Source: an uncultured bacterium | Lineage (GTDB): Bacteria; Patescibacteriota; Saccharimonadia; Saccharimonadales; Saccharimonadaceae | DNA length: 64,000 nucleotides | Reading direction: 5' to 3' | Assembly: GCA_903952435.1 (NCBI GenBank) | Contig: CAJBFN010000002.1 | Coordinates: 1 to 64,000 of the forward strand | Shown: piece by piece, positions 22,295 to 22,496 of the stretch | How the letters are laid out: each line of letters opens with the position of its first letter | Numbering within the stretch: the first letter of the stretch is position 1 | Notes under the pieces: generated by a model | What the model saw: the letters and a program-made list of their open reading frames with translations, nothing else | The model's database searches: none | Told to the model about the DNA's origin: nothing | Position numbers and translations under genes: made by a program

Positions 22295-22371
22295 GGGGAT
22301 ATAGCTCAGTTGGCTAGAGCACCTGCTTTGCAAGCAGGGGGTCCAGGGTTCGAGTCCCTGTATCTCCACCA
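22295..22371 (+). tRNA. tRNA-Ala(TGC)
   Basis: GGGGATATAGCTCAG...CTTTGCAAG...GGTTCGAGTCCCTGTATCTCCACCA; G3:U70 present. Confidence 0.97.
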
Positions 22372-22374
22372 TAT

Positions 22375-22410
22375 GGGGCAGAACAGGCGAAAGTCTGAAC
22401 TGCTCCACCA
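22375..22410 (+). ncRNA. tRNA-Ala acceptor-like minihelix with encoded CCA
   Basis: GGGGCAG-AAC-AGGC-GAAA-GTCT-GAA-CTGCTCC-ACCA: 7-bp acceptor-like stem with G3:U70, A73, CCA, inner stem with GAAA loop. Confidence 0.6.
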
Positions 22411-22419
22411 TAAACTTAA

Positions 22420-22496
22420 GGGGCTATAGCTCAGTTGGTTAGAGCGCGTCACTGATAATGACGAGGTCTGTGGTTCAAGTCCCCATAGCCCCACCA
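22420..22496 (+). tRNA. tRNA-Ile(GAT)
   Basis: GGGGCTATAGCTCAG...ACTGATAATGAC...GGTTCAAGTCCCCATAGCCCCACCA. Confidence 0.97.

Follow-up and report, generated by a model that had tools for sequence, protein, structure and literature searches.

A conserved minihelix gene of Saccharibacteria with the alanine determinants of tRNA and a possible role as alanine donor in cell-wall synthesis

Can a genome encode a tRNA that is reduced to its acceptor arm, and which process would such an RNA serve? This question is raised by a 36-nt hairpin between tRNA-Ala and tRNA-Ile in an rRNA operon of an uncultured member of the Saccharibacteria, within the 64,000-nucleotide stretch of DNA analysed here (the window). 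Minihelices charged by a synthetase have been laboratory models since 1989 and provide a picture of primordial tRNA, and an acceptor-arm 'half tRNA' has been proposed as the ancestor of tRNA. We know of no genome-encoded charged minihelix, the mini-tRNA being familiar to us only from the test tube, and our literature search found no genome-encoded minihelix of this kind. The reading that we favour and consider reasonably probable, judging from sequence comparisons, is that of a non-ribosomal mini-tRNA-Ala that would receive its alanine from AlaRS and serve FemX-type enzymes in cell-wall branching.

A tRNA-like hairpin in the 16S-23S spacer

The element occupies positions 22375 to 22410 of the forward strand, on which all features described below are located, and is present as a single copy in a genome of 686 kb. 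The operon has the order 16S, tRNA-Ala, element, tRNA-Ile and 23S. The element starts 4 nt past the CCA of tRNA-Ala(UGC) (22295-22371), which also carries G3:U70, and ends 9 nt ahead of tRNA-Ile(GAU) (22420-22496). A preliminary description, made from the letters alone, had placed the same sequence at exactly these positions, and the fold predicted here is identical to the one that it proposed. An acceptor-like stem of 7 bp is formed by GGGGCAG (22375-22381), in which G1 to G4 are invariant, and CTGCTCC (22400-22406). It is followed by a 2x2 A-rich internal loop (AA at 22382-22383 and again at 22398-22399), which represents layers 8 and 9, one of them being paired in many relatives. The distal stem of 5 bp (CAGGC, 22384-22388; GTCTG, 22393-22397) is closed by a GAAA tetraloop (22389-22392), in place of which relatives have UUCG, GCAA, UUAC or others, and the discriminator A73 and the encoded CCA tail (22407-22410), both invariant in relatives, complete the element. 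G3:U70, likewise claimed earlier, corresponds to 22377 and 22404, and C71 to 22405; the preliminary description also likened the first five pairs to those of the E. coli tRNA-Ala acceptor. The predicted fold has an energy of -19.6 kcal/mol and accounts for 98% of the ensemble (z = -5.0), and none of 200 shuffles reached this stability. In the TAT leader (22372-22374), the last position before the hairpin is a U, as in nearly all relatives, which fits an RNase P cleavage site. Based on the fold, a covariance model with its relatives and standalone homologues, we annotate the element as a candidate mini-tRNA-Ala, i.e. a 36-nt minihelix with an encoded ACCA.

ARAGORN and Rfam recovered the flanking tRNA-Ala and tRNA-Ile and no tRNA at 22375-22410, where a single hairpin is folded instead of the cloverleaf of the tRNA family (RF00005), and no Rfam family matched the element at either gathering or permissive thresholds. 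An intrinsic terminator or attenuator is not apparent either, because the stem in the window is followed by ACCA and then by TAAACTTAA with no direct T-run, and the T-runs of some relatives come only after the CCA. The element possesses the sequence determinants of an AlaRS minihelix, namely G3:U70 in an acceptor helix, A73 and CCA, which the window copy has and which do not vary among 39 distinct sequences, and all of the arms that characterize a tRNA are missing from it.

Distribution, covariation and standalone genes

The Ala-Ile region was searched in 60 relatives, an approach that does not presuppose the element, and the same hairpin was found at the same place in nine further genomes and in a decayed form in a tenth. 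In ten copies, pairing is complete (100%), and five of the pairs differ in both of their nucleotides. With a covariance model, 53 of 393 genomes of the order were found to have one copy each, the few weakest of which are chance matches; the weak matches L080, L081 and L083 were judged to be so. With a broader model, the element was detected in 71 of 246 genomes and 22 of 50 genera of the window's family, and there were almost no copies in the rest of the phylum. Five additional families contain it, four of them recovered, with well-folded copies, by an exact-pattern scan of the order and one, of the same class, by the phylum search. The homologues are single-copy and 33 to 38 nt long, nearly all of them 34 to 38 nt.

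Conservation and covariation across Saccharibacteria, which the preliminary description had proposed as a check, are both pronounced. In 30 distinct copies of 36 nt, 94.6% of the cells are paired and eight pairs show double changes; the double-compensatory cells amount to 52, versus 13.0 in shuffles and 7 to 12 in slid controls. Nine distinct 37-nt sequences with a bulge, all from one genus, gave the same result (99.2% paired). Pair 3:70 is G:U and pair 2:71 is G:C in all 30 and all nine of these sequences, and G1:C72, A73 and the encoded CCA are equally invariant. The covariance models do not demand G:U at pair 3, and the exact-pattern scan is silent on the invariance of G3:U70, since the pattern itself requires GGGG...CTCCACCA. 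For mere stability, a wobble at 3:70 is the weakest choice, yet it is invariant; a comparable wobble lower in the stem, at pair 13, becomes G:C in 7 of the 30 copies. Gene conversion with the nearby tRNA-Ala could partly account for the invariant GGGG/CUCC, which the standalone copies described below keep as well.

In a scan of named genomes, the folding copies adjacent to a tRNA belonged, among the matches listed, only to Candidatus Saccharibacteria, save for one contig. This contig, L098 (JAODAV010000056.1), is labelled Rhodoglobus and probably misbinned; it contains an array of Saccharibacteria-type tRNA-Ala, minihelix and tRNA-Ile, and no other match outside the Saccharibacteria among those listed adjoins a tRNA. 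About half of the listed pattern matches were dismissed as chance, and a further pattern match, L219 (G122), was rejected because its coordinates overlap the AlaRS gene. A search for other small CCA-ending hairpins beside tRNAs returned only this element and its sub-hairpins. The loop is C-rich (CCCCC or CCCCCC) in L103, L123, L126, L154, L160 and L166, mostly of genus g2, and there it is complementary to the element's own 5' GGGG.

Loss of the stem, G3:U70 or CCA in close relatives had earlier been named as the finding that would speak against a functional element. Such a loss exists: in the congener L003 (genome G007), the minihelix is decayed and has lost G1 and G3, while the CCA is kept and FemAB genes are still present, and other relatives are without the element. 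In L003, the gene is in the course of being lost naturally. All intact copies that DNA similarity or a covariance model brought up have retained the stem, G3:U70 and CCA. In the spacers L011, L012, L024, L025 and L026, tRNA-Ala and the intact tRNA-Ile are separated by incomplete tRNA-Ile copies in decay, which suggests repeated duplication and decay in these spacers.

Most copies start 3 to 14 nt past tRNA-Ala or tRNA-Ile. The 16S-23S spacer is a common location, and in the window, too, the copy is located inside the rRNA operon. Genus g38 has eleven loci away from any tRNA-linked position. All of them show a TATAAT-like hexamer (5 to 6 of 6 matches) exactly 11 nt before G1, and this -10 box has a mean of 5.55 matches at that offset versus 3.3 or less at any other. 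Within the next 80 nt, a terminator hairpin with a T-run is found in 9 of the 11 loci versus 3.7% of random positions; some of the loci are near-identical and several are clearly different, so that they do not count as eleven separate events. G043, G047 and G192, which belong to other families, likewise have standalone copies with -10-like boxes. As the copies of g38 have their own promoter and terminator, the element is an independent RNA gene, and we regard its conservation as such as virtually certain. An 82-86 aa protein is encoded directly downstream of several standalone genes of g38 (L057, L058, L060 and L280); the 86-aa gene was set aside, as it shows just a marginal HU-type DNA-binding match and its position probably reflects synteny within the genus.

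The preliminary description had left three options side by side, a chargeable mini-tRNA, a processing or attenuation element and a tRNA remnant, and these findings separate them. A hairpin that functions in processing, spacing or attenuation within the rRNA operon would agree with the usual position a few nucleotides past a tRNA in the 16S-23S spacer. It is largely refuted, however, by the standalone copies, which are located outside rRNA operons and have a promoter of their own and a separate terminator, and it assigns no role to the strict G:U at pair 3 or to the CCA, which makes it very improbable. That the hairpin is what remains of a deleted tRNA-Ala copy, or that it arose by chance, is scarcely credible: decayed tRNA-Ile copies do exist in neighbouring spacers (L011, L012 and L024) and one relative, L003, has a decayed element, but the length is kept in nearly all copies over several families, and the covariation counts refute both versions. 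The standalone genes exclude a role solely as rRNA-spacer structure as well as a passive remnant, and together with the covariation these copies, far from rRNA and tRNA, contradict two of the three options. The chargeable mini-tRNA is favoured, because the AlaRS determinants are invariant while the remaining stem covaries, because in one genus the gene is provided with a promoter and a terminator of its own, and because the AlaRS that would charge it is devoid of the C-Ala domain.

Charging by AlaRS and the link to FemX-type enzymes

In the window genome, AlaRS consists of 627 aa (G000:C1:154570-156453; L248:171-2054) and matches PF01411 and PF07973 only; it thus has catalytic and editing domains, a C-Ala domain was not found in it, and among NCBIfam models it is matched best by the short form NF002436. 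C-Ala is the domain of AlaRS that binds the tRNA elbow, and the C-Ala-less AlaRS of Tupanvirus charges a tRNA-Ala microhelix in a G3:U70-dependent manner (PMC10036535). By analogy, charging of the minihelix by a C-Ala-less AlaRS is plausible, and we consider it probable that the element is charged with alanine by AlaRS. A PF01411 match was present in 40 of 40 relatives checked, nearly all of which have similarly short genes (about 630 aa), with or without the mini-tRNA. The short AlaRS is therefore permissive and not specific, as carriers and non-carriers have it in common. In one genome (G154:C1:300436-305346), the normal AlaRS gene is accompanied by additional AlaRS-like sequences, one of which contains an internal stop.

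The window genome encodes at least two FemAB proteins (PF02388, E = 1e-87 and 9e-30), one of whose genes lies no more than about 3 kb from a Mur ligase gene and 4 kb from a gene for a Ddl-Mur ligase fusion. The nearest curated NCBIfam model of these proteins is the FemX alanyltransferase, with scores far below the cut-off. Within the window's family, FemAB is found in 38 of 39 carriers of the element versus 21 of 23 non-carriers, a comparison that is uninformative because FemAB is near-universal there. Outside this family, FemAB is present in all ten well-folded carriers versus 12 of 66 non-carriers (p = 7e-7), after two poorly folding pattern matches without FemAB (G036 and G038) had been excluded from the carriers in retrospect; counting them gives 10 of 12 versus 12 of 66 (p = 2e-5), and collapsing to families gives 5 of 5 versus 6 of 28 (p = 0.002), whereby the p values count genomes that are not phylogenetically independent. 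In G192 and G043, which represent two families, the mini-tRNA precedes a MurF-like ligase gene by 67-75 nt, and genes for an alpha/beta hydrolase, a DegT aminotransferase and a FemX-like protein follow, all in one orientation. The linkage is not strict: G157, the main exception, has a perfect mini-tRNA, and no FemAB or PF13480 match was found in it. Conversely, many FemAB genomes are devoid of the element, which is thus not essential for FemX.

Reviews report that FemX of Weissella viridescens uses Ala-tRNA and requires G2-C71 (PMC4052509) and that it does not need G3:U70 (PMC6765224). The invariance of G3:U70 therefore speaks for AlaRS, and G2:C71 fits FemX; both pairs are invariant, as expected of an RNA that serves AlaRS and FemX. 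As regards a peptidoglycan donor, the window genome has both a FemABX transferase gene and, in the element, the FemX identity element G2-C71.

We propose that the element forms a helix of about 12 to 14 continuous layers, the size of an acceptor stem stacked on a T stem, with a tetraloop at one end and A73-CCA at the other. In the window, the mini-tRNA would be cut from the 16S-23S pre-rRNA together with tRNA-Ala and tRNA-Ile, with RNase P cleavage behind the U at -1 to generate its 5' end and trimming back to the encoded CCA to generate its 3' end; some relatives would transcribe it from its own promoter. The RNA would then accumulate and be charged with alanine by the C-Ala-less AlaRS via G3:U70. 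Decoding is impossible for an RNA that has neither an anticodon nor a D or T loop, and the alanine of the mini-tRNA would most likely be handed to FemX-type (FemAB) transferases, which would add it to peptidoglycan precursors in cell-wall branching. The alanine supply of the cell wall would thereby be separated from translation. That FemX-type enzymes are the main users appears rather probable from the co-occurrence and the gene neighbourhood; this likely link to the cell wall was absent from the earlier readings.

The same RNA gene, charged by AlaRS in the same way, might instead supply a different user, such as an aminoacyl-transferase of another kind, an enzyme of peptide tailing or lipid modification, or a regulator sensing the charged minihelix. 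The occurrence of the gene without FemAB in G157 and the many FemAB genomes that manage without the gene would be explained in this way. A different user is nevertheless unlikely, because the co-occurrence outside the window's family and the neighbourhood in two families point to FemX, and lipid aminoacylation of the MprF type was rejected as a candidate, since the lipid synthase PF09924 exceeded the cut-off in just one of 40 genomes. It is less likely still that the RNA is an uncharged decoy or regulator, i.e. a tRNA mimic whose binding to AlaRS, EF-Tu, RNase P or the CCA-adding enzyme would modulate their activity or the output of the rRNA operon. Its usual place inside the rRNA operon beside tRNAs and its tRNA-like ends would suit such a mimic, and a decoy of AlaRS would likewise keep G3:U70. 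However, a decoy needs neither an invariant encoded CCA nor a neighbourhood of FemX and Mur ligase genes, and a pure mimic for RNase P or EF-Tu has no need of G3:U70.

Relation to known tRNA-like RNAs

An alanine-accepting tRNA mimic is known in the form of tmRNA, which is, unlike the element, a large RNA with a reading frame (RF00023). Synthetic minihelices and microhelices of tRNA-Ala are substrates of AlaRS (Francklyn and Schimmel 1989, as cited in PMC9976931), and they share with the element an acceptor-type hairpin, G3:U70, A73, CCA and a size that AlaRS charges in vitro. They are laboratory constructs, whereas the element is a natural, conserved gene that is apparently transcribed independently in some species. 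The non-proteinogenic tRNA-Gly of Staphylococcus aureus, which serves FemX/A/B, is likewise an RNA presumed to be set aside for peptidoglycan enzymes (PMC4052509, PMC9976931), but it is a full cloverleaf with an anticodon and carries glycine, whereas the element is without D arm, anticodon arm and T loop and would carry alanine. In Weissella viridescens, FemX depends on G2-C71, the pair that is invariant in the element, and Ala-helices have been used as FemX substrates; the donor there is an ordinary tRNA-Ala and not a dedicated small RNA (PMC4052509, PMC6765224). The minimal tRNAs of mite mitochondria are also shortened and natural, but they keep an anticodon and decode, which the element cannot (PMC2797822).

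As a system, the element would resemble the staphylococcal non-proteinogenic tRNA-Gly, with a far smaller RNA. The chances appear evenly balanced that it is a dedicated, encoded minihelix which receives alanine and, acting exclusively away from the ribosome, donates it to FemX-type enzymes, and thus a living acceptor-arm 'half tRNA'. If this is true, the operational code of the acceptor stem would be used alone in living cells, and the diversion of aminoacyl groups from translation to cell-wall synthesis would have a clean and directly testable answer. The cell envelope of Saccharibacteria, a group to which human oral epibionts belong, would also become accessible in a new way; the oral taxa HOT-352 and HOT-348 are among the carriers in the matches listed from the named-genome scan.
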